From Oscillospiraceae bacterium (GTDB taxonomy: Bacteria; Bacillota; Clostridia; Oscillospirales; Oscillospiraceae), in assembly GCA_017448455.1 (NCBI GenBank), contig JAFSLL010000284.1, forward strand, positions 1-36,192: 36,192 nucleotides of DNA, given 5' to 3'. The notes under the pieces were generated by a model, which was given only the letters and a program-made list of their open reading frames with translations, ran no database searches and was not told the DNA's origin. Both the position numbers and the translations under genes were made by a program. Of this stretch, positions 11,789 through 30,138 are shown piece after piece. The number at the start of each line of letters is the position of its first letter. Position 1 is the first letter of the stretch.

Positions 11789-13048
11789 CTAACCAGCTAG
11801 ATCTTTGGCGCGCTCTATACGCGGGGCTTCTTCGCCTTCGACCGTTTCTCTGGTAATCGTGATCTTCAGAATCCCTGTGTCGGATGGGACTGTGTACATG
11901 ATATCGGTCATAACGGATTCGACAATGCTGCGAAGGCCGCGGGCACCGATCTTCTTTGAAATCGCGCGATCGGCAATTGCTTCCAGCGCATCCGGTTCGA
12001 AAACCAGTTCCACACCGTCCATCCGCATCAGCGCCTGATACTGTTTAATCATGGCGTTTTTCGGTTCTGTCAGAATGCGCACCAGATCCTCACGCTTGAG
12101 CGTGTCCAGTGTGGCCACAACCGGCAGACGGCCGATCAGCTCCGGAATGATACCGAACTTGAGAAGGTCTGACTGCTGAACCTGTTCAAACAGTACGCCA
12201 AGATCCTTTTCTTCCCCGCTGGAAATATCCGCGCCGAACCCCATGCTTTTTTTTGCAGTACGACGCTCGATAATCTTATCTAGCCCGTCAAACGCGCCGC
12301 CGCAGATGAAAAGAATGTTGGTCGTGTCGACCTGGATGAATTCCTGATGCGGGTGCTTGCGTCCCCCCTGCGGCGGGATGTTGGCTACCGTACCTTCAAG
12401 GAGCTTCAGAAGCGCCTGCTGAACGCCTTCGCCGGAAACATCGCGTGTAATGGAGGTGTTCTCGCTCTTTCGCGCAATCTTGTCAATTTCATCGACATAG
12501 ATTATCCCACGCTGCGCGCGTTCCACGTCGTAGTCGGCCGCCTGGAGAAGCTTGACAATCACATTCTCAACATCTTCTCCCACATAACCGGCCTCCGTCA
12601 GCGTTGTGGCGTCCGCGATCGCGAACGGCACATCCAGCATCTTCGCCATCGTCTGGGCAAACAGCGTCTTACCGCTGCCAGTCGGCCCGATCATCAGAAT
12701 ATTACTCTTCTGGAGCTCCACATCATCCTGATGGCTGTACAGGATCCGCTTATAATGATTATAGACCGCAACCGCGAGCACCTTTTTTGCCCGGTCCTGA
12801 CCGATCACATACTGATCCAGATTTGCCTTGATCTGAATCGGCTTCGGGAGACGGTCAAACACCAGAGGGAGTCCGTCATAACCGGTCATCGGCTCTTCCT
12901 GGTGCAGGTCTCCGATGATGCTCATGCACATCCGCACGCAGTCATCGCAGATGTAGCTGCCGTTGCCGGCGATCAGACGGTTCACCTGACTTTGCGGTTT
13001 TCCACAGAACGAGCAGCGCAGGCTGCGTCTGTCCTCACTTCTTGCCAT
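11789..13048 (-). CDS. clpX: ATP-dependent Clp protease ATP-binding subunit ClpX
   Basis: AAA+ unfoldase that feeds substrates to ClpP. The 419 residues begin with the C4 zinc-binding domain (Cys12, Cys15, Cys34, Cys37), followed by Walker A GPTGSGKT (121-128), Walker [10 protein letters not shown], and the sensor-2 region near GARGLRSI. The IGF-type ClpP-docking loop appears as [13 protein letters not shown]. It follows clpP with a 69-bp gap holding a very stable hairpin. Confidence 0.97.
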
Positions 13049-13075
13049 ACGTTTTCTCCTGTTATGTATAGTTCA

Positions 13076-13108
13076 ATATGGGGGAGCACCTGTCGTGTTC
13101 CCCCATAT
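13076..13108 (-). other. Very stable intercistronic hairpin between clpP and clpX
   Basis: A perfect 10-bp outer stem (13076-13085 with 13099-13108, ATATGGGGGA/TCCCCCATAT) is extended by a G-U and three more pairs, closing a 5-nt loop (13090-13094). No U-tract follows on the minus strand. An mRNA processing, stability or partial-termination element that sets clpP:clpX stoichiometry is the likeliest role. Confidence 0.55.
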
Positions 13109-13117
13109 GGCTATCTT

Positions 13118-13699
13118 TCAGCGTTTCACAATCACCTGATCGATCAGGCCGTAGTCCTTCGCTTCTTCGGCGGTCATGAAGTAATCTCTCTCACAATCCC
13201 GCTCGATCTCTTCAACCGTTTTGCCGGTATTGCCCGCAAGAATCCTGTTCAGGCGCTGCTTCACTTTCAGAATCTGCTCCGCCTGAATCTGGATATCCGT
13301 GCACTGACCTCTGCTGCCGCCAGAAGGCTGGTGAATCATAATTTCACTGTTCGGCAGCGCAATACGTTTTCCCTTCGCGCCGGATGAAAGGAGAAAAGCT
13401 CCCATCGATGCGGCCAGGCCGATGCAGATGGTACAGACGTCCGGTTTAATATACTGCATGGTGTCATAAATCGCGAGGCCTGCTGACACGCTGCCGCCGG
13501 GACTGTTGATATAAAACTGAATATCCTTGTCGGGATCCTGCGCTTCCAGATAAAGAAGCTGGGCCACAATCAGGCTGGCTGTTGTGTCGTTCACTTCCTC
13601 TGAAAGGAGGATGATACGGTCGTTCAGTAGCCGGGAGAAGATATCATAAGATCGCTCTCCCCGACTGGTCTGCTCGACAACATAAGGGATAAAACTCAT
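13118..13699 (-). CDS. clpP: ATP-dependent Clp protease proteolytic subunit ClpP
   Basis: Tetradecameric serine peptidase that partners with ClpX. The 193 residues carry the complete catalytic triad Ser98 (GLAASMG), His123 (IMIHQPSGG) and Asp172 (ERDYFMT). The start ATG at 13699 overlaps the tig stop by 4 nt, so translation is probably coupled to trigger factor. Confidence 0.97.
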
Positions 13700-15045
13700 T
13701 CCGCAGTCTCCTCAGAGGCTTCCGCAGGCGCTTCGGCTGCTTCTTCCGCTTTCAGCTCTTCCTCAGAGACAACAAGCGCATTCTCCGTAATCAGATTCAT
13801 GGCCTGCTCACGCAGCAGCTCATTCTTCAGGAAGGTCTCCCCAAAGTAGCGCTTGACATCCGCGACTTCCGCACCGACGCTTTCGGCGGTCTTTTTGCAG
13901 TATGCTTCGAATTCTTCGTCAGTCGGTTCCAGATTCTCCGCCTTGATGACAGCATCCAGAAGCAGTTCGGTACGCACCTGTGCCTCAGCACCGGGACGGA
14001 TGGAGAACTTCACCACATCCTCGCTCAGGCCAAGCAGCTTCAGCATTTCAGCGCGGGTCATGTCCGGCTCACCCATACCGTACTGAGAGACATAATTACG
14101 CAGGAACTCGTCAACCTTCTCTTCAAACATGACTTCCGGAATTTCAACTGTCATGTTCTCCCCAGCCTTGCGGATTACCTCATCCTTGAAAGCGGTCTCG
14201 GCACGGTCATCCGCGCGCTTCTGCAGGTTGCTGCGAACATCCGCTTTGTATTCCTCAAAGGTATCGAACTCGGAAACATCCTTGGCAAACTCGTCATCGA
14301 GTTCGGGATACTCCGGAGAACTGACCTCGTTCATCACAATGTGGAAAACAACCGCTTTGCCTGCCAGATTCTCCGTATAATTTTCGGGGAAGGTAATATC
14401 AATATCCTTCTCGTCTCCGGCATTCATGCCAACAAGCTGCTCCTCGAAACCGGGAACAAAAGAGTTGGAGCCAAGCTCCAGAGAGTATCCTTCCGAAGTG
14501 CCGCCGTCAAAGGGAACACCATCAAGTGTTCCGGCAAAGTCGATATTCACCGTGTCGCCCATTTCCGCGGCGCGGTCGACATTGATCATACGGGCATTGC
14601 GTTTCTGAACGGAAGCGATCTCCGCATCGACAGCTTCATCCGTCACGGTTTCCGAGGTTTTCGCAGCTTTCACGCCCTTATACTCACCCAGTGTGACTTC
14701 CGGATAGAGCGTTACATCAAAGCCAAACTCACAGCCCTTGTCCTCTGTGACGTTTACAGCGGAAATGCGGGGCTGACCGACAATACGAAGTCCGCCTTCC
14801 GTGAGGCCGAACTGAAAAGCTTCCGGAGCGATATCATCCATGGCGTCCTGATAGAAGACTTCATGACCGTACATGCCCTCCACGATCTGGCGCGGGGCCT
14901 TGCCCTTCCGGAAACCGGGAATATAAATATCTTTCTTACTTCTCAAATAGACAGCGTTGACAGCCTTCTCAAATTCACCCGGCTCCGCCGCTACGGTAAA
15001 GACAGCATTATTGTGTTCTTTTTTCTCCAGATTTTTCAGAATCAT
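13696..15045 (-). CDS. tig: Trigger factor, ribosome-associated chaperone and peptidyl-prolyl isomerase
   Basis: Binds L23 at the ribosomal exit tunnel and folds nascent chains. The 449 residues have the N-terminal ribosome-binding domain with the signature [10 protein letters not shown] (about 44-53). An FKBP-type PPIase domain (about 150-245, [10 protein letters not shown]... GFEEQLVGM) and the C-terminal chaperone arms follow, ending in an acidic Ala/Glu-rich tail (about 430-449). An AGGAGG Shine-Dalgarno stands 8 nt before ATG. It is the first gene of the tig-clpP-clpX-lon-engB operon. Confidence 0.96.
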
Positions 15046-20749: not shown

Positions 20750-21143
20750 CTCTCATTGCCTCCGTAATGGCAGTGAACAGCTCCCGAATCCTGTCTGTTT
20801 TCCCCTGCAGATAAAGCCAGCCAAACAGAGCTTCCAGCCCTGTCGCGCTGTGGTACTCTCCCGGATTGGCGTGCTGCGGAATGCCGTGAACCTTACTGTT
20901 TCTGCCCCGTCGGTAAACTGCTTCTTCCTCCTCCGTCAGAAGAGGCCGCAGATTCTGAGCCACGGCAGCCTGTGCTTCCGCGCGCACCCACGCAACCGTC
21001 CTCCTGTGAAGCTCCTGCATGCCGCTCGGCGCTTCTGAGGCAAGCATGCTGCGGACAAGCAGCTCATAGACCGCGTCTCCCACCTGGGCCAGCGCCAGCA
21101 TGCTGAGACTGTTCAGCTGTGTAAGGCTGAGCGGTTCATTCAT
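20739..21143 (-). CDS. mrnC: Mini-ribonuclease III
   Basis: Dimeric RNase III-like enzyme without a dsRNA-binding domain that matures 23S rRNA ends in Bacillota. The protein has about 134 residues. The catalytic acidic residues are in ALAQVGDAVYE and GLEALFGWLY, and the RRGRNSK motif is present. In-frame ATGs at 21143 and 21149 both fall within the ftsK end; the exact start is uncertain because no good Shine-Dalgarno separates them, and translational coupling with ftsK is likely. Confidence 0.93.
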   Translation of the reverse strand: MNEPLSLTQLNSLSMLALAQVGDAVYELLVRSMLASEAPSGMQELHRRTVAWVRAEAQAAVAQNLRPLLTEEEEAVYRRGRNSKVHGIPQHANPGEYHSATGLEALFGWLYLQGKTDRIRELFTAITEAMRDGA

Positions 21144-23838
21144 TTTCATCATCGAGATCGTCAACCTCATCTCCCATTTCCGGAAGTTCTGTCAGGGCAT
21201 CGGCCGGGAGATAGCCGAGTTTTACCTGAAGTGCCTGCCAGCCGGCTTTGTCAATGGTGACGCTTCTGGGTTTCGCACCCTCATAGGGGCCGACTATCCC
21301 CAGTTCTTCCAGCTGATCAACAATTCTCGCTGCGCGGGCATAGCCAAGTTTAATGCGGCGCTGCAGCATGGAAACAGAACAGGATCCCATTTCAATGACC
21401 ACTTCTGCCGCCTGCGGCAGCATCTCATCATAATCTCCGGCAGGGCTGTCAGTGTCCGCACTGCCTTTCTCGGATTCCGCGTTCTTCTCTTTTGTCGCGC
21501 GCACCATGTAATCTTCCAGTTCGCTGTTTTGCTGCGTTTCCAGATTATTATGCTGTTTGATGAAGTTGATGACATCTTCCCGCTCTTCATCTGTCACGAA
21601 GGATCCCTGGATGCGTGTCGGCTTCCCGCTGCCAAGAGGCGCATAGAGCATATCGCCGAAGCCAATCAGTTTTTCCGCACCGCTTTGGTCAAGAATAATC
21701 CTGCTCTCCAGGGCGGACGAGACAGCAAACGCGATACGGGACGGGATATTCGCCTTCATCAGTCCGGTAATGACATCCGCTGAGGGACGCTGTGTGGCGA
21801 TCACCAGGTGCATACCGGCAGCTCGTCCCATCTGTGCGACACGGCAGATGCTCTCTTCCACGTCTTTGGAAGCAACCAGCATCAGGTCGGCGAGCTCGTC
21901 AATCACGATGACGACGCGTGGAAGCGTACTCTCTCCCCGGTCCTTTTGAATGCGGTTGTACGCGTCCAGATCCCGGACGCCGCTCTCTGAGAAAGCGCGG
22001 TAACGTTTCAGCATCTCCACTACAGACCACTGCAGCGCTCCGGCAGCCTTCTTCGGATCGGTAACGACAGGCACATAGAGATGCGGAATGCCATTATAGA
22101 TTCCCAGCTCCACCATCTTGGGGTCAATCATGATCAGCTTGACCTCATCCGGTCTCGCCTTATAGAGGAGACTCAGAATCAGGGAGTTCATGCAAACCGA
22201 TTTACCGGAGCCGGTCGTACCGGCAATGAGCAAATGCGGGAGTTTGGAGATATTCCCGACAATACAGTTGCCGCCGATATCCTTTCCAAGCGCGAAGCTG
22301 AGTTTGGATTTGGCGCTTGAGAAGTTGCCGGAATCCAGAATATCACGCAGGAAAACCGTACTGATCGTTTTATTCGGCACCTCGATCCCTACGGTCGAAA
22401 TCTTCTCCGGAATCGGAGCAATACGTACATTGACAACGCCAAGAGACAGCGCAAGATCCCCGGCAAGGTTGGTAATACGGGCAAGCTTCACGCCGCGGTC
22501 CAGTTCCAGGTCATAGCGTGTCACGGTAGGTCCTCGAATCACACCAACCACCGACGCGCTGATTCCGAAGCTCTGGATGGCTTCCTCCAGGCGGTGTCTG
22601 TTCAACGCTACTTCATCTGATGCGTCCGCCTCAATGCCGCTGCTTGCGCGAAGAAGTGAGAGCGGCGGAAAGACATAGTCCTCCGGTGTGTTTACGCCCG
22701 CAATCGCCTGTTCGATTTCTTCCCGTTCCCTGCTGATCTCGTCCGGACGCGCGGCAGTACCTGTCTCTGTCGTTTTGGTTCTGCGGCCGGTCTGCCTGAC
22801 CGTCTTTACCGGTGTAGACTGTGTCTGTTTCGGCACTACAGGATCCGCTGCTGCCGCCGCTGCTGCCGCCTCCAGCGCTTCCAGTCCGTGTGCTCCTGTT
22901 GCGCCGACACTGCCGGTCATGGAAGTTGTCTGGACGCTTTCCTTTTGTTTTCCGAACAGATCGTCCTCTTCCAGCGGGATATCACGAATAATCTCCGGGG
23001 TCTTCTTCCTCGGCCTGGCAGGTGTTTTCTTCACCTGCCCTGCGCCCTGAACTTCCAGAGCCTCTCCCTCGTCACCAAGCGGGATATCCACACCGAACGT
23101 GCTACGCCGGTCGCCCTGGACAATTTTCGGCTGCTGGCGGACTCTGGCATCGGCGCGCGGAGCATGCTGAAGCTTTTCAATTTTCTTGTTTTCCCGCTCA
23201 TACTCCACATAGGCGTTGTGAGACTGTGTAATCTTCGCGAGCAGTCCACGCAGGCTGCCCCAGAAGCAGACGCAGAAACAGTACAGAAACGCGAGCATCA
23301 GCAGCGGCAGGGCGCCATACATGCTGAGTGTTTTCTTCAGACCGTTGGCTATTAAACCGCCAATTACACCGCCTGACTTGAGTACCTGTCCGTCCAGGAA
23401 AAGATCCTCCACTGCTACCGCTATCGCAGTCCCTTCCCGAATTGGGGTGTTCAGAAGCAGCTCCGACAGTGCTGCAAGCAAAACCGGCAGCATTACCGTA
23501 GCAAAAACGCGGCTGCCAACCGGACGGTTCCCACAGGCAAACAGCTGCAGCGCAGCAAGCGCGAACGCGGGCGCAGCAAGATAAAAACCCCATCCCAGAA
23601 GTCCCTTCAGCCAATCCGAGAAGAATTGAACAAAGCTTCCCTCTGTGTTAAAGAAGCTGATAGCCGAACAGATCGCCAGAACCAGAAAAATCAGGCCGCC
23701 GACAATATTGGTTCCGTTGACTGCCGACTCGGTTCCCGTTTCCTGCGCGGATCTGCTCTTCTTCTGAGGAGGAGGGGGCGCTCCGCGGGTGCTTCTGTTC
23801 GATGTGGTTTTCTTTTTTGTTGTTGCTTTTCTTGCCAT
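21136..23838 (-). CDS. ftsK: DNA translocase FtsK/SpoIIIE
   Basis: Septum-located DNA pump that clears chromosomal DNA during division or sporulation. The 900 residues include a basic N-terminus and four or so membrane segments between about 44 and 198. An acidic/Ala/Pro linker (about 210-380) precedes the motor: alpha domain (about 385-520), RecA-like beta domain with Walker A GTTGSGKS (540-547) and Walker B VVIVIDELADL. The C-terminal winged-helix gamma domain (about 830-880) would recognise KOPS/SRS-type polar motifs. It follows uppP with a 22-bp gap. FtsK and SpoIIIE cannot be separated by sequence inspection alone. Confidence 0.96.
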   Translation of the reverse strand: MARKATTKKKTTSNRSTRGAPPPPQKKSRSAQETGTESAVNGTNIVGGLIFLVLAICSAISFFNTEGSFVQFFSDWLKGLLGWGFYLAAPAFALAALQLFACGNRPVGSRVFATVMLPVLLAALSELLLNTPIREGTAIAVAVEDLFLDGQVLKSGGVIGGLIANGLKKTLSMYGALPLLMLAFLYCFCVCFWGSLRGLLAKITQSHNAYVEYERENKKIEKLQHAPRADARVRQQPKIVQGDRRSTFGVDIPLGDEGEALEVQGAGQVKKTPARPRKKTPEIIRDIPLEEDDLFGKQKESVQTTSMTGSVGATGAHGLEALEAAAAAAAADPVVPKQTQSTPVKTVRQTGRRTKTTETGTAARPDEISREREEIEQAIAGVNTPEDYVFPPLSLLRASSGIEADASDEVALNRHRLEEAIQSFGISASVVGVIRGPTVTRYDLELDRGVKLARITNLAGDLALSLGVVNVRIAPIPEKISTVGIEVPNKTISTVFLRDILDSGNFSSAKSKLSFALGKDIGGNCIVGNISKLPHLLIAGTTGSGKSVCMNSLILSLLYKARPDEVKLIMIDPKMVELGIYNGIPHLYVPVVTDPKKAAGALQWSVVEMLKRYRAFSESGVRDLDAYNRIQKDRGESTLPRVVIVIDELADLMLVASKDVEESICRVAQMGRAAGMHLVIATQRPSADVITGLMKANIPSRIAFAVSSALESRIILDQSGAEKLIGFGDMLYAPLGSGKPTRIQGSFVTDEEREDVINFIKQHNNLETQQNSELEDYMVRATKEKNAESEKGSADTDSPAGDYDEMLPQAAEVVIEMGSCSVSMLQRRIKLGYARAARIVDQLEELGIVGPYEGAKPRSVTIDKAGWQALQVKLGYLPADALTELPEMGDEVDDLDDENE

Positions 23839-23860
23839 GAATATAAATCCTGTCCCGTAA

Positions 23861-24691
23861 TCAGAAAATCAATGTCAGGATGATCGACAGAACACCGATC
23901 ACCAGACTGTAGTATGCCAGGCCGCCATACCCGCGCTTCCGAACGATCCGCCTGAAAAGGAAGACGGAAAAGAAGCCCGTCACAAAAGCCGCAAGCGCGC
24001 CAAAGAGATAAGCAGTCAGATAGTAGCTCTCTATTCCAAGTCCCGCGGCATCCGCCAATGTCAGAATGGATGAGCCAAACAGTGCGGGGATCGCCATCAG
24101 AAGGCCAAAACGGATGGCGTAATCTTTCTGGAAATTCTCTGCCTGCAGCGCCCCGATCGTCAGGGCCAGACGCGAGAGGCCCGGAATCACCGCCACCGCC
24201 TGGCAGATTCCCACAATCAGCGCGTCAGGAATCGTCATGCGGCCAAGCCCCTTTTTGCCGGGGATCATTCTCTCACAGATATAGAGGACTGCGCCGTTTA
24301 AAAGAAACATCACGCCGACAAAAGTGGTATTCCCCCAGAGTCCAAAATAGGCTTTGCGAAACGGCAGCATGATCAGCAGCGGCAGCGTTGCCATCACCAA
24401 CATGAAAAGCTGACGCGCCGCCGGAAATCTGCCTCCTTTTCCTGTCGGGCGCGGTCCAAAGCCAGTCAGACCAGCGGTGTCGCGGATCATCTCTCCAATC
24501 TCCTTGCGGCGGGCAACAATCAGTGCAATCATAACGGCAAGTTCGACAGCCGCCTTGAACAACAGGTTCATCGACGTCAGGCGCAGATCGAAAAACGCGT
24601 TAAGCACAGAAAGATGGCCGGAGCCGGACAGTGCCAGAACTTCCGTAAGCGCGTAGATGATTCCCGCTGTAATGGCATTCCCGACAGACAT
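23861..24691 (-). CDS. Undecaprenyl-diphosphatase family (BacA/UppP) protein, divergent active site
   Basis: BacA/UppP proteins dephosphorylate undecaprenyl diphosphate to recycle the cell-wall lipid carrier. This 276-residue polytopic protein has the family fold and keeps Glu17 (TEVL), His26 (SGSGHL) and Arg174 (PGLSR). The position equal to E. coli Glu17 is Tyr13 and that of Ser27 is Gly23. The usual PVSS and SRSG motifs read ALSG and SRLA. It may be a weakly active or repurposed paralogue, so no symbol is assigned. ATG at 24691 is chosen over ATG at 24709 because AGGAG stands 8 nt upstream. It is the first gene of the uppP-ftsK block. Confidence 0.85.
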   Translation of the reverse strand: MSVGNAITAGIIYALTEVLALSGSGHLSVLNAFFDLRLTSMNLLFKAAVELAVMIALIVARRKEIGEMIRDTAGLTGFGPRPTGKGGRFPAARQLFMLVMATLPLLIMLPFRKAYFGLWGNTTFVGVMFLLNGAVLYICERMIPGKKGLGRMTIPDALIVGICQAVAVIPGLSRLALTIGALQAENFQKDYAIRFGLLMAIPALFGSSILTLADAAGLGIESYYLTAYLFGALAAFVTGFFSVFLFRRIVRKRGYGGLAYYSLVIGVLSIILTLIF

Positions 24692-24736
24692 GTCCCCATC
24701 TCCTTTCATCCTGCTTCAAGCGAAGTTTTTCAGAGT

Positions 24737-24765: not shown

Positions 24766-24801
24766 GAGTACACCTACAGGTGCAAAATGAAAGCAAAAAC
24801 A

Positions 24802-24830
24802 AAGCGCCGGGCATTTTCTGCTCAGCGCTT
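24802..24830 (-). terminator. Rho-independent terminator after the TIR-TPR gene
   Basis: A 12-bp stem with one mismatch (24819-24830 with 24802-24813; AAGCGC/GCGCTT at the base) and a 5-nt loop is followed in the minus-strand RNA by UGUUUUUGCUUUC. It separates the TIR operon from the uppP block. Confidence 0.8.
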
Positions 24831-24884
24831 CCCGATTCCAGCCGTCTAAGTATTATAACTGACTATCCGCCAGACGACGTTATG

Positions 24885-26987
24885 TTACTTTCCAACCTGC
24901 GCGATTATCTCGCGGATTTCGGCGAAATGCGGAGAACTGAGTCCTCCCCGTTCCTGGGACTCCAGATCACGAAGGATCATCTCCGCCTGCCCTCCTCCGA
25001 GGGAAGCAACCGCGGTCAGCAGCGCATCGGCATCCTCATCGTATCCGGAGTACAGGCAGGCATAGCCGAGAATCTGGTTAACGAGGGGATTGTCCGGCTG
25101 CAGCTCATGAGCAGCAAGCGCTGCCTCCAGAGAGGCCCGGTAGTCTTTTTCATGGATCAGAAGATAGTATGAACGCCAGGCTTCATACTGCGAACGGTCA
25201 AAATCGCCCAGCCTGTCCAGCATCGACTCATAAAGCGCAAGTCCTTCTTCAAAGTATCTCCGGGAACGGCTATCGTCCGCGAGCTTATAGGCGTTCTCCC
25301 CGCAGTTGATATTCAGCATGGCGGCCATGGTTCTGTCCGCGTCGGCATCCGTTTTCTCAATGATTTGTGTATAAATACCAACTGCTCGCACATAAAGAGG
25401 ATCCGCCGCCCCGTAATCGCCGCGCATATTGAGCATCATCGCCTGATTGCTGCAGAGAACTGCCAGATTCCGCCGGTATTCCGTGTTTTCCCCATCTTCT
25501 GCCAGATTCTCAGAAATCTCAAGGGCATCGATATATGTACGGTCTGCCTCGTCAAAATCTCCCTGATCTGTCAGGGCAGCTGCCAAAACGTTTAAATACT
25601 GAACATGCTTTGCCCTGTTCTGAAGAGAGTCAACCTGCTTCAGTAAACGCCTGTGAAAGCCGCATGCCGTTCGCAAATGCTCTTCTGCCGCGATATACTC
25701 ACCCATGCGATAGAGCACCGTGCCGTAATGGAAGTGAGTCTCCGCAAAAGTCTGAAGGCTATCCGGATCCTCATCCTTCTCCAGGCCTGAAAGTGAAAGG
25801 AGCCCCTGATCGAAGCATGAAAGCGCCCGGGAATCATCACCGATGTCGATTGCATTTGCGCCTGCATTTATAAATGTCCGGGCAAACTGGAGCTGTTTCT
25901 CCTTCGTTGGCTGCTCCAGGCTGACTCCAGACAGAAGATCAAGCGCCTTATCGAAGGCCTGGGCCGCCTCTGTATAACGTCCCGAGCTGTTAAGGATACT
26001 CCCCCGGTTATTCCAGGCGGAGGCGAGCTTCAGCTCACCCCCCTCCGTCCCCTGATCAGCCAATGCCTGAAGACGGTCGATGGCAATCTGCTCCGCGTCC
26101 AGCGCTTCCTCATACTTCCCGAGCACCGCGTTTGCATTTGCCAGCTTTTCATAGTTGGCTGCGGCCTCAAAGGCAGCGTCAACCTGATCAGAGGACAGCT
26201 GAAGAACAGCTTCAATATCCACCGTGTTCCGCCGCAGGATATCGGCAATGCGGCTGTAAGCGCCCGGAACGTTTGTCAGATGATCCGGAAGGCTGTAAGT
26301 CAGTTCATTCAAAATGCGCATGGAAGCGTCTTTCTGCCTCTCCTGCGTCTCACGGTAGCCTTCGGCAAGCCTCATCAAGCCGAGCGATACGGCGGCGATC
26401 ACGGCAAAGACGGCAGCCGCAGCAACGGCACGTGACGCTGTCTGTGTGTTTTTGCGCAGCTTGTGCTCCCGGAGCAGCTCCGACTCTCTGCAGCCGGTCA
26501 CGCCCGCAATAACACGCAGGAGCTCCATCTCCTCCCGGGCCATCATCTTCTTTACGCTGCCATCCCCGGCGCGGATATCCATTACGCGGTCCATGATATC
26601 CGGGACCAGCTTCAGCGAGGGCGGGAAGGAGCGCTCCGGATCCCCGCTGATCAGCAGCGGATAGATATGATCGGCCCTTCCGATTTCAATGAATGTCGCC
26701 ACCTCGCGGTCAATCCACTCTGACGACGGTGTATCCGTCGAACAGACCACCACCAGACAGTTGGTGGAACGCAGAGCCTTGTCGATGGTATCCGTAAGGA
26801 CACGGCTGACGGGCAGTTCTTCCGTATCGCGGAACGCACGACGGACATCCCGAAAGCCCCGCCTGCGGAGAGCCTGCGGAATGCGGTAGCTCTCCACGGC
26901 GTTAAATGTTTTCTGTGTGATTTCAGCATCCAGCGATTTGTGACGATAGCTGAAAAACACATCGTAATCAAACACCGGTTCTGCCAT
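24885..26987 (-). CDS. TIR domain protein with one membrane segment and C-terminal TPR array (receptor-like)
   Basis: This 700-residue protein starts with a TIR-like domain (about 6-165): DYDVFFSYRHK, then AFRDTEELPVS and CLVVVCSTDTPSSEWIDREV. Glu95 in WIDRE sits where NAD-cleaving TIR domains carry their catalytic Glu. A basic stretch (REHKLRKN) and one hydrophobic segment (about 184-205) follow. After these come about nine TPR-like helical hairpins (about 275-665), with the WNNRGSILNSSGRYTEAAQAFDKAL pattern at 325-349 as the clearest. The positive-inside rule suggests the TIR is cytoplasmic and the TPR array extracellular. It lies 12 bp after a secreted repeat-protein gene in a two-gene operon. 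Bacterial TIR domains act in anti-phage defence as NADases or as scaffolds; which applies here is unknown. Confidence 0.85.
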   Translation of the reverse strand: MAEPVFDYDVFFSYRHKSLDAEITQKTFNAVESYRIPQALRRRGFRDVRRAFRDTEELPVSRVLTDTIDKALRSTNCLVVVCSTDTPSSEWIDREVATFIEIGRADHIYPLLISGDPERSFPPSLKLVPDIMDRVMDIRAGDGSVKKMMAREEMELLRVIAGVTGCRESELLREHKLRKNTQTASRAVAAAAVFAVIAAVSLGLMRLAEGYRETQERQKDASMRILNELTYSLPDHLTNVPGAYSRIADILRRNTVDIEAVLQLSSDQVDAAFEAAANYEKLANANAVLGKYEEALDAEQIAIDRLQALADQGTEGGELKLASAWNNRGSILNSSGRYTEAAQAFDKALDLLSGVSLEQPTKEKQLQFARTFINAGANAIDIGDDSRALSCFDQGLLSLSGLEKDEDPDSLQTFAETHFHYGTVLYRMGEYIAAEEHLRTACGFHRRLLKQVDSLQNRAKHVQYLNVLAAALTDQGDFDEADRTYIDALEISENLAEDGENTEYRRNLAVLCSNQAMMLNMRGDYGAADPLYVRAVGIYTQIIEKTDADADRTMAAMLNINCGENAYKLADDSRSRRYFEEGLALYESMLDRLGDFDRSQYEAWRSYYLLIHEKDYRASLEAALAAHELQPDNPLVNQILGYACLYSGYDEDADALLTAVASLGGGQAEMILRDLESQERGGLSSPHFAEIREIIAQVGK

Positions 26988-26999
26988 CTGATCTCCCTC

Positions 27000-29900
27000 T
27001 TATTTCCGTGCGGCAATCTCCGGGCACTCCGCCAATGCCGCGTAGAAGGCTTCTGAGAACTCCTCCCCGTCAAAGTCGAAGGCAACTACAACAAAAGCGC
27101 CCAACCATTCTGCTTTGAAATGTAACTTCCCGGTGACGGGATCATATTGGGCCCGGAAGGCATGCAGTCTGCCGTCTGCCCCGATGAAAACCGCATAAAG
27201 GCTCTTCCCGACGCTCTGTACCGAAGGCGTATACTCCATATAGACGTCGACTGCGGTCGGCAGCACAGACAGCTCTTCTCCGTTGCGAGAGGCATGAAGC
27301 ACATAGGCACTGCCGGAAGTCTCGATCCATATCTCGATGCGGACTTCCGCTTCGGTCTCCTGTCCCCTGTCATCGTCGGGGTCTGTGGGGTCAGTCGGGT
27401 CGGTTGGGTCAGTCGGATCGGTCGGATCGGTCGGATCAGTCGGGTCGGTCGGGTCAGTCGGGTCAGTCGGGTCAGTCGGATCGGTCGGATCAGTCGGGTC
27501 GGTCGGGTCGGTCGGGTCGGTCGGGTCAGAATATGTTTTCCCCAGATTCACCGAGCCCGCTCCGGAACCGCCGAGAATCCCGCTGCCGGTAAAGCTCATA
27601 CTGGTCAACACCGCGGGTCCGACCGGTTCGACATAGGCGACGCCTGTGGAGAAGGAAATCCGAACCAGGCAGAGATCGTCAGCTCTGACATCACCCCCCA
27701 GGTCCTCTTCATAGTCGTAGTAGTCCGCTGTAATGACAGTCTGCGTGCCGCTCTGCGTTTTGTAAACCAGCTCTATTACGATATACCAGTATTCGTCTGT
27801 ATCCACCCCGCTGTTTTTTATGATGTCCGCCAGATCTTCCAAGGGCAGAAGCAGTCCGCCTTTTTCCAATACCGCTTCAACCTGCGTGTCGGATAAATTT
27901 TCCACAATTTCAATCCGCTGTCCCTTGTTTTTTCGTGTCTGCTGCTCAATTGTGGTGCAGGTAACGGGAATAACCGCGCCGTTCTCGGTATCGCTTCTCT
28001 CCGGGAGATTCTCCGGCTGCATGTGCAGAGGGCTCCAGGAAGTATCCAGGATTCCCGCATAATCATATACAATTCCGTCGACGTCTGTGGAGACCGATAC
28101 GCCATCCATCGTTGTTCCCGGTACCACCTCAAAAAGGCCGGATTCCAGGCAAAGGGTGCCGTTCCCGCTGATTGTTCCGCTGATTTTGATCGGGCTGTGA
28201 TTATTATAGCTTGCGGAATAGATCCAGTTTGTTCCCAGCGCCAGGGTGCCGTCGATAGAGGCAATTTTCAGCTCGGAAGCATCCGGGAGCACAACACTGC
28301 AATCACCGGAACTGACCAGCCCTGTGACCGTCTTCTGACCGGTTTCGCCGGATAGGGTAAGCCCGTTGATCCTGACATTGCTTTCTTCGTCGTTCAGAAA
28401 AACCGTGGTATCCTGGATCTTCAGAAGCTCGATATTTCCTTCCCCATAGATCCTCAGCACACCGGAAGCAAACGTTACTTCCGAGCCGGCAATACAGGCA
28501 GGCTCCGCAATCTCCGTCTGATAGGCGCTGACACTGCCGCTGCCAGTAAGAGCAGAAGTTTTATCTTCGATTGTGACCAATCCGTCACCTTCGACACTGC
28601 CATCGACGATCAGCTGTCCGCCGGCTTTTACCGTAAGTTCCGGATGCTGAAGAAAGTCACCGGTAGGCGTATGCCCGAGGCTGGAGAGGTCCTGCATCTC
28701 CAGCACAGCGCCATTTTCGATCTCCAGTGAGGCATTTGCGCCGATTGTGACCTTACCGATGGATTCGACGACATTATCTCTGCTGACCGCCTTATAGTCG
28801 TGGTCAACGCCATGGTAATAGCCTACACTGCCGTCCTCAAGTGCCTCCGCTCCGGTGCCGCAGAGAAGAAGCATTGTTCCATCAGGCATGACAAGCTCGC
28901 AGTCTTCCAGCACGTATTCCTCATCCAGGATCCCCGGAACCGAGCCGTTTACGAGCACATACCTGTCACCGTCCTGCTGTTTGACAAAGACCGCGACACT
29001 GCCCTCGTCATAGATATCCGTGAAGGTCAGCAGCTCCAGATCGCCTTCGAGGCTGTCTAAAAGCAGAATCCCTGTTCCGGCAATCCGGACTTTACCGCTT
29101 CCGGTAATCGAGGTAAGCCGGTTGAGCCCTGCCGCCAGAACAGTAATGTCACCGTCCGCACACAACTCTTCCGTGCCGCTGTGATTGACCATCACATAGC
29201 TCCCGTCCTCCAGTTGACTGAAGACGGTGTCCGCTTCGTCTTCTTCGCTGCCGGGCTGCTCGTCGTTCTCCTCAGTACCGCCGGACGCCTGCATCTTTGC
29301 TTCTTCGGCAGAAGAGTCGGCTGCTTCTGTATTCTCGATCATCGCATAAGCAGCTTCCATCTCAGGAGTGACCGCGCCTTCTTCTTTCTCGTCCGGCTTT
29401 TCAGATGCTCCTTCTTCTGCAGATTCCTCTGTGTTAGGAACAGACTCCGCCGCTTCATCCACAGCGGGATCCACAGCCTGCTCGACCGCGTCAACCGCAT
29501 CTTCCTCCGCTTTCGGGCTCTCTCCTTCAGAAGGACCGATGGAGGAATCCACGTCTGCCGGTTCTATCTCAGCTTCTTCCTCCTTCGAAGAAGACGGCTC
29601 ATCAAGCGGCAACTCCTCACCTGGGGCACTGAGCAACGTTGTGTCAGTGTCCGAAGGAACGGCTGTCGATGTTTCCGCACTGACAGGAAGCTCAACACCC
29701 GGCGCAGGAGCCTGCTCCACGCTGACGGCCACCGGGATATATTCCACCGACGAAGTTGCCTCAGGCACCGTGCCGGGTACTTCTGTCGCCGCTGACGGAG
29801 ATCCCCCAGAAGATGGAGCTGCATCCGAAGTTTCCGAGTAAAGCACCGGATCTGCGTTCATTTCGGCAGCTGGTTCGATAATCTGCGTAAGAGGTTCATC

Positions 29901-30005
29901 GGGGGGTGTCTGTTCATCCGTGTCAGCATAAGCCTTCCCGTGGAGCGCAAAGGCAAGCAGTGAAGCGAACACAACGCCGCCCAGTTTTCTAAGCCACTTT
30001 TTCAT
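27000..30005 (-). CDS. Large secreted acidic protein with 16 Asp-Pro-Thr repeats
   Basis: Exported protein of 1001 residues, not recognised as a known family. The signal peptide (KKWLRKLGG then a hydrophobic stretch, AYA-type end near 28) is followed by about 200 residues rich in Glu, Ser, Ala and Pro. A beta-rich region (about 240-820) with Gly/Asp turns and repeated valine/leucine strands resembles a surface beta-helix or carbohydrate-binding module in character. The 16 tandem Asp-Pro-Thr units come next, then a compact C-terminal domain of about 120 residues. No LPXTG motif, membrane anchor or SLH domain was seen, so attachment to the surface, if any, is by another route. ATG at 30005 has GAGGG 8 nt upstream and precedes the signal peptide; an earlier in-frame ATG at 30047 is less likely. 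It shares a transcript with the TIR-TPR gene. Confidence 0.85.
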   Translation of the reverse strand: MKKWLRKLGGVVFASLLAFALHGKAYADTDEQTPPDEPLTQIIEPAAEMNADPVLYSETSDAAPSSGGSPSAATEVPGTVPEATSSVEYIPVAVSVEQAPAPGVELPVSAETSTAVPSDTDTTLLSAPGEELPLDEPSSSKEEEAEIEPADVDSSIGPSEGESPKAEEDAVDAVEQAVDPAVDEAAESVPNTEESAEEGASEKPDEKEEGAVTPEMEAAYAMIENTEAADSSAEEAKMQASGGTEENDEQPGSEEDEADTVFSQLEDGSYVMVNHSGTEELCADGDITVLAAGLNRLTSITGSGKVRIAGTGILLLDSLEGDLELLTFTDIYDEGSVAVFVKQQDGDRYVLVNGSVPGILDEEYVLEDCELVMPDGTMLLLCGTGAEALEDGSVGYYHGVDHDYKAVSRDNVVESIGKVTIGANASLEIENGAVLEMQDLSSLGHTPTGDFLQHPELTVKAGGQLIVDGSVEGDGLVTIEDKTSALTGSGSVSAYQTEIAEPACIAGSEVTFASGVLRIYGEGNIELLKIQDTTVFLNDEESNVRINGLTLSGETGQKTVTGLVSSGDCSVVLPDASELKIASIDGTLALGTNWIYSASYNNHSPIKISGTISGNGTLCLESGLFEVVPGTTMDGVSVSTDVDGIVYDYAGILDTSWSPLHMQPENLPERSDTENGAVIPVTCTTIEQQTRKNKGQRIEIVENLSDTQVEAVLEKGGLLLPLEDLADIIKNSGVDTDEYWYIVIELVYKTQSGTQTVITADYYDYEEDLGGDVRADDLCLVRISFSTGVAYVEPVGPAVLTSMSFTGSGILGGSGAGSVNLGKTYSDPTDPTDPTDPTDPTDPTDPTDPTDPTDPTDPTDPTDPTDPTDPTDPTDPDDDRGQETEAEVRIEIWIETSGSAYVLHASRNGEELSVLPTAVDVYMEYTPSVQSVGKSLYAVFIGADGRLHAFRAQYDPVTGKLHFKAEWLGAFVVVAFDFDGEEFSEAFYAALAECPEIAARK
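27384..27527 (-). repeat. Sixteen 9-bp tandem units encoding Asp-Pro-Thr
   Basis: The units read gac-cc(g/a/c)-ac(c/t/a) in the coding direction, with variation at third positions. This is an in-frame spacer inside the secreted protein gene, expected to be extended and proline-rich. Near-identical 9-bp units can change number by slippage without a frameshift. Confidence 0.95.
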
Positions 30006-30108
30006 GCGTGTTTCCCTCTCTGAATTGAAAGACCGTTGGCATAGCACAGGAATACACTGTCTCCGCCAAAACTGCCAAATATGTCTTTTTGTATAAACGT
30101 TATGAGAT

Positions 30109-30138
30109 ATTATATCATATACTTGTTACGAATGACAA
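30109..30138 (-). promoter_or_regulatory. Promoter for the secreted-protein/TIR-TPR operon
   Basis: TTGTCA (30133-30138) and a perfect TATAAT (30109-30114) on the minus strand are separated by 18 bp. The predicted leader is about 95 nt. It lies divergently to the flavodoxin operon promoter, about 110 bp away. Confidence 0.72.

Follow-up and report, generated by a model that had tools for sequence, protein, structure and literature searches.

Gene content and layout of the locus

The stretch of DNA analysed in this study, hereafter the window, comprises 36,192 nucleotides (contig JAFSLL010000284.1 of the Oscillospiraceae bacterium assembly GCA_017448455.1, positions 1 to 36,192). Two genes lie 12 bp apart on its minus strand, in agreement with the initial annotation. 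The first (27000..30005, ATG start) encodes a 1001-residue protein, here named SecP, which is predicted to be exported, fast-evolving and, by a poor structure model, beta-rich; the second (24885..26987) encodes a 700-residue protein, identified by Pfam, genus search, structure model and fold match, in which an N-terminal TIR domain is followed by one transmembrane (TM) segment and an array of tetratricopeptide repeats (TPR), and which is referred to as the TIR-TM-TPR protein or long TIR. Comparison with related genomes indicates that this pair makes up half of a membrane TIR system whose parts, a pseudo-TIR among them, are inherited together, and which plausibly feeds a K+ channel carrying a RyR (ryanodine receptor) domain.

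The TIR domain occupies about residues 1-140 (26568..26987, minus strand). Pfam matched ThsB_TIR (2.3e-7) and TIR_2 (8.3e-7) as well as a number of TPR models, TPR_12 (2.7e-16) among them, and both TIR families passed their cut-offs (PF13676 TIR_2, 30.0 bits vs 28; PF08937 ThsB_TIR, 31.6 vs 21.2), bearing out the TIR domain of the initial annotation. The candidate catalytic residue named there, Glu95 (codon 26703..26705, minus strand), lies within a WIDRE motif and supplies the glutamate of the WxxxE-type helix of catalytic TIRs; its column holds Glu in 22/22 long TIRs in an alignment with short TIRs, a count that excludes locus L123, where only the C-terminal half is present, perhaps the other half of the L122 gene (loci, genomes and contigs carry L, G and C numbers throughout). 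As to known TIR structures, the profile search matched solved ones at E 6e-4, but the TIR part of the AlphaFold2 model is of low confidence (its alignment held two sequences), with a TIR-like order of strands and helices. The single membrane-spanning segment, likewise as first proposed, is placed at residues 187-205 (26373..26429, minus strand) by hydropathy and charge count, rich in lysine and arginine (K/R) on the TIR side, with a 21-residue window from residue 188 as the alternative placement. About nine or more units make up the TPR array (24987..26267, minus strand): a home-made scan found nine TPR-like units, the number first annotated, and this agrees with Pfam and with the AlphaFold2 model, which shows an extended solenoid of helices, with mean pLDDT mostly 80-95 for residues 280-640, and matches solved TPR domains (8chy, E 7.7e-9; LGN 5a7d_C, TM-score 0.77 on target length). 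With PADLOC, the window protein had weak partial ThsB matches only (E 0.0032 and 0.0048); the matches were confined to TIR or TPR parts, and the protein of L056 matched SAVED_TIR at 7.9e-7.

SecP begins with a predicted signal peptide (MKKWLRKLGG...KAYA; 29925..30005, minus strand) of a pattern common to its relatives, which upholds the exported first gene product of the initial annotation. Our own exported-protein pattern fitted 20/21 SecP starts, that of the window included, the exception being a frame with an unsure start; two of the 21 rows are duplicates (two L242 rows repeat L118). Neither a sorting motif nor a membrane tail was seen in the SecP starts and sequences checked with this pattern. 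A conserved domain lies near each end of the protein, an N-terminal beta domain (28866..29171; alignment of 18 sequences) and a C-terminal domain (27003..27359; alignment of 19 sequences and genus search), both on the minus strand and separated by low-complexity linkers, and a repeat scan found a 9-bp tandem repeat of 16.6 copies that encodes an Asp-Pro-Thr linker (27379..27527, minus strand). The length of this in-frame repeat could differ among strains, with the gene staying on. SecP had no Pfam, NCBIfam or PADLOC match, and NCBIfam gave nothing above its cut-offs for the TIR-TM-TPR protein either. Between L056 and L057, identity is 36.5% for SecP, and 70-75% for the long TIR, the short TIR and two further neighbours, X and Y, described below; judged from these sequences, SecP is evolving faster than its neighbour genes.

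A promoter-like site (TTGTCA-N18-TATAAT with TG; 30109..30138, minus strand) precedes SecP, where the initial annotation placed its single promoter. It agrees with the consensus at 11/12 positions, but the region holds 3 such sites vs a mean of 3.6 in shuffled DNA, not above chance. Similarly, the strong terminator claimed there is represented by a hairpin before a T-run (24799..24833, minus strand) recognised by folding energy (24795-24840, -18.5 kcal/mol, z -2.5, 3/200 shuffles equally good, then T-rich), but this hairpin is absent from the output of a simple terminator scan. Adjoining the operon, the order UppP-FtsK (window 21136-24709) is conserved in the 8 genomes whose UppP resembles that of the window most; the 4-9 kb taken from those genomes held no match to the operon or to the window genes upstream of it. 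Since this order is kept there without the operon, the operon fits an accessory gene set at its window position. A mobile insertion was also considered and set aside, as the UppP-FtsK comparison reveals no element ends.

Co-inheritance of three genes within the genus

The genus sample consisted of 102 draft genomes, including the window's own (91.9% complete, 7.3% contaminated); these genomes are related, so the Fisher P values given here and below overstate. Full-length TIR-TM-TPR was identified in 16/102 genomes, hereafter the system genomes, and any match at 1e-30 in 22/102, the remainder being TIR parts. A short TIR-TM protein of about 280 aa (E below 1e-100) occurs in the same 16/102 genomes as the long one (Fisher 5e-19); at 1e-20 the count rises to 26/102, with other TIR proteins accounting for the weaker matches. 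The C-terminal domain of SecP was found in 14/16 system genomes, one of them (G112) by a weak match (3.5e-6), and in 0/86 others (Fisher 2e-15). Of the two system genomes without it, G014 has the first domain and then the contig end, and the cluster of G028 starts at a contig end; the contig of L062, also without this domain, ends there as well.

The usual gene order is SecP (one to three tandem copies per cluster), short TIR-TM, TIR-TM-TPR. SecP lies in the same cluster as the long TIR at 18/23 loci (17 from alignment-built neighbourhood models and L086 from the SecP C-domain search; L101 and L121 on weak partial matches), sitting downstream rather than upstream at L062 and L114, so the two genes of the window do co-occur elsewhere, usually adjacent, as the check proposed with the initial annotation had sought. 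Among the five loci without a neighbouring SecP, L061, L120 and L123 reach a contig edge and L060 and L119 do not. The short TIR gene adjoins the long one at 17/23 loci, the others being the window, L063, L114 and L119 together with L120 and L123 at contig edges. A second SecP/TIR-TM-TPR pair is encoded on contig C180 of the window's own genome, its TIR-TM-TPR protein 47% identical to that of the window, and the short TIR of this genome is encoded on contig C78 (L064), away from both pairs. A search of genome contigs added one more complete locus, L056. L101 (G081:C60) and L121 (G112:C7) are near-copies that were counted separately: in these two species the long TIR domains are identical and the short TIRs nearly so, which makes recent transfer between species, or mixed bins, possible.

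The presence/absence counts indicate that SecP, short TIR-TM and TIR-TM-TPR are inherited together, and they ruled out chance neighbours. The initial annotation had taken the pair for a self-contained unit; this was rejected because a short TIR, found in the same genomes, is co-inherited with it, and a RyR-domain channel and its neighbour are often alongside. In the column of Glu95, all 18 short TIRs hold Arg (9) or Lys (9), suggesting a catalytic TIR paired with a pseudo-TIR partner. Long and short TIRs form one clade each (support 100/99 and 100/100, with a warning of long branches from the tool), and the pairwise distances of the two sets are correlated across 15 loci (r 0.93, 0/5000 permutations). 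Separate clades with matched distances would be expected of an active and an inactive TIR that have long been partners.

No full-length TIR-TM-TPR was found outside the genus at E 1e-30 among 394 order and 398 phylum genomes, two sets that both contain the window's own genome, where matches were to TIR parts only; a broad family was thus rejected. Partial TIR or TPR matches occurred in 9 plasmid records, and the phage search returned no match to TIR-TM-TPR.

A RyR-domain K+ channel beside the cluster

A pair of genes, X and Y, recurs in the flanks of the 18 loci compared. Two membrane segments and a TVGYGD filter are followed in Y by a RyR domain at the C-terminus; in L056, Y matches Ion_trans_2 at 9e-15 and RyR at 1.3e-7. 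Ion_trans_2 was above cut-off in 5/5 Y proteins scanned, and the TVGYGD-type filter is found in 22/24, L243 being cut at the start and L226 varying. With the RyR family PF02026 (cut-off 27.4 bits), L056 (32.2) and L057 (30.0) were above the cut-off among the five scanned, L226 (24.3) was below it, and no match was reported in L115, where the channel (12661-14154) has a degenerate RyR end and retains the pore filter. The C-terminal end of Y in L056 also matches the structure of an animal ryanodine receptor at 6.6e-16, and bacterial RyR structures are matched as well, 3nrt for instance at 1.7e-4. X has membrane segments and weak TrkA_N or NAD-binding matches; its end is RyR-like by eye, and Pfam reported no RyR in X.

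X-Y is co-directional with SecP, short and long TIR in L056, L057, L112 and L113, and Y alone is so in L115; gaps in the five-gene run of L056 are -13, 15, 39 and -4 bp. The pair is divergent from SecP in L063 (the second SecP/TIR-TM-TPR copy of the window's own genome), L241 (with the TIR genes on another contig) and L242, and X is divergent, at a contig edge, in L122. Y was detected in 24/102 genomes, 14/16 with the system vs 10/86 others (Fisher 3e-9), counting G081 by fragments and omitting partial matches of G082, G122 and G124 (E 2e-32 to 7e-28), which would bring the others to 13/86. X was detected in 25/102, 14/16 vs 11/86 (Fisher 7e-9). On plasmids, the search for Y gave one partial RyR match. 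Gene order and these counts show that the SecP/TIR cluster often has the genes for the RyR K+ channel Y and for X next to it. In L226, L249 and L251, X or X-Y immediately precedes a different TIR-TM protein with another ectodomain, which may represent a second type of receptor linked to X and Y.

Comparison with known systems

RyR-domain proteins bind TIR-made cyclic ADP-ribose (cADPR) signals, according to the available text of a 2026 preprint (PMC13232231), which names four ligand residues, H, W, H and D, of the phage protein RyDEP and leaves cADPR and animal RyR for future study. Y resembles RyDEP in its RyR domain, scored above the PF02026 cut-off in two of the five Y proteins scanned, and in the equal spacing of these residues (H, H+3 W, H+25 H, H+42 D), which holds in 23/24 Y proteins. 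RyDEP itself is a free-standing protein that phages use against Thoeris as enzyme or sponge, whereas here the RyR domain ends a bacterial K+ channel. RyR is not mentioned in the available text of PMC9503650. In the titles and abstract openings surveyed, with most subscription papers outside the coverage, we found neither a pairing of TIR-TM-TPR with an exported protein nor a RyR-domain K+ channel tied to TIR.

In the staphylococcal Thoeris system, as described in the available text of PMC11312562, ThsB1 binds phage capsid protein and the active site of ThsB2 does the chemistry, the active site of ThsB2 being needed and that of ThsB1 not, with a separate effector. The likeness to this system (ThsB1, ThsB2, ThsA) lies in two TIR proteins, divided labour and a separate effector, as far as the available text of that source goes. 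Here, in contrast, each of the two TIR proteins has a membrane anchor, the second one lacks the glutamate, and the set includes an exported partner. A SIR2, SLOG or Macro domain, as in ThsA-type effectors, was absent from the Pfam results of the five cluster proteins, to which the screen was confined within these genomes. The system thus appears to resemble two-TIR Thoeris in outline; identity with Thoeris would go beyond that resemblance.

Sister TIR-TM-repeat proteins of the genus share the TIR family and a similar position of the membrane segment, with repeats after it, but differ in repeat type, and neither SecP nor a short TIR was found in the stretches examined. As read from sequence, L066, L067, L068, L070, L071 and L073 are propeller-like and L069 and L074 Sel1-like; PQQ_2 was above the Pfam cut-off only in L066 and L249 among the sister proteins scanned, the other repeat assignments being by eye or below cut-off. 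At L069 (6667-8184), a divergent gene next to that of the TIR-TM-Sel1-like protein encodes a signal-peptide protein, perhaps another exported partner.

Animal Toll-like receptors have a TIR domain inside the cell, a repeat domain outside and one membrane segment, with the opposite domain order, leucine-rich repeats rather than TPR, and TIRs that act as adaptors. The resemblance of TIR-TM-TPR to them is one of layout only (TIR predicted inside, repeats predicted outside, one membrane segment).

Proposed mechanism and alternative explanations

We give about an even chance to a TIR signalling system in the membrane that includes an exported partner and in which a surface TIR receptor would act through a cADPR-type messenger and, where present, the RyR channel. 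In such a system, TIR-TM-TPR and the short pseudo-TIR would assemble in the membrane as a hetero-oligomer, with the TIRs inside and the pseudo-TIR in the regulatory role that ThsB1 has towards ThsB2 in staphylococcal Thoeris, and SecP at the cell surface would bind or cover the TPR array. An outside event (phage, rival bacterium or SecP loss) might disturb this contact, upon which the catalytic TIR would make an ADP-ribose-type messenger from NAD+; in genomes with Y, the RyR domain of the channel would read this messenger and open or shut K+ flow, and the altered flow would stop the cell or its infection. The full chain, with SecP sensed by the TPR ectodomain, a cADPR-type messenger made by the TIR/pseudo-TIR pair and a RyR K+ channel gated by it, is offered tentatively, as something possible rather than probable. 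The initial annotation had allowed for either signalling or NAD depletion by the TIR domain; in view of the RyR channel, plain depletion seems less likely to us than a signal passed to a separate effector.

Several observations weigh against this proposal. SecP is modelled poorly (pLDDT 47.7), with a fold match no better than E 0.018, L060 and L119 have a long TIR without SecP beside it despite available sequence, and the contamination of the window's own genome means that the genes on C78 and C180 may belong to another organism. The RyR match of Y in that genome (L063, 22.3 bits) is under the cut-off, and, since RyDEP hydrolyses its ligand, the RyR domain of the channel might degrade rather than sense a messenger. 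The system genomes G009 and G072 (65% and 87% complete) have neither X nor Y, the window itself holds no X, Y or short TIR, both X and Y occur in genomes without the receptor at the frequencies given above, and no TIR gene lies near Y at 11/12 listed Y loci, leaving the link between TIR and channel partial. The spread of Y beyond the system, its distance from TIR genes at those loci and the absence of X and Y from the window would also be expected if the receptor is read correctly and the channel is not its effector, the clustered TIR depleting NAD+ directly as an abortive NADase and X-Y forming an independent ion homeostasis module. We regard this as rather unlikely, as both genes are enriched in system genomes, share one co-directional run with the cluster at four loci (L056, L057, L112 and L113) and precede other TIR-TM receptors in L226, L249 and L251.

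The proposal also depends on the membrane topology, for which the initial annotation had drawn on charge placement. The TIR-side flank of the membrane segment is indeed richer in K/R in 22/22 long and 18/18 short proteins, and because of this excess the TIR is expected inside and the TPR outside; an outward-facing TPR array thus seems probable. The K/R ratio of the TPR part (0.44), however, is cytosol-like, close to that of TIR domains (0.49), with controls at 0.80 in eight soluble window proteins and 1.05 in nine exported proteins. Its Cys content (1.06%) is near that of exported proteins (0.90%; soluble 1.56%), and in 10 sister TIR-TM proteins the repeat parts reach a high 2.0%. Composition discriminates poorly as a topology test, leaning weakly towards a cytosolic TPR. 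The K/R ratio and the Cys content of the sister proteins would suit a protein whose TIR and TPR are both cytoplasmic, the hydrophobic stretch being an anchor and the TPR sensing an internal phage or host protein, with SecP in a separate surface role under common regulation. This arrangement is distinctly unlikely in our view, given the charge excess in 22/22 long proteins, a full-length hydrophobic segment and the co-occurring exported protein, which within the genus is confined to genomes with the receptor. A system for kin or self recognition rather than defence, with the fast-evolving, tandemly duplicated SecP as a polymorphic self signal for the receptor, would account for the low identity of SecP between L056 and L057 beside that of X, Y and the TIRs, and for its one to three copies; we consider it very improbable, as no toxin partner was noticed among the named cluster genes and fast change also fits an exposed shield or decoy.

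Implications

The bacterial TIR systems known to us sense trouble inside the cell. The membrane TIR system proposed here provides a candidate for a TIR receptor that looks outward and has an exported partner, with a pseudo-TIR present in 16/16 genomes having the receptor. The same TIR family is joined to other repeat domains in sister proteins, so this layout may be general in the genus. The RyR channel beside several copies of the system offers a test bed for whether TIR-made cADPR signals gate ion channels via RyR and, if true, this would be a prokaryotic counterpart of the link from cADPR to the ryanodine receptor proposed in animals.

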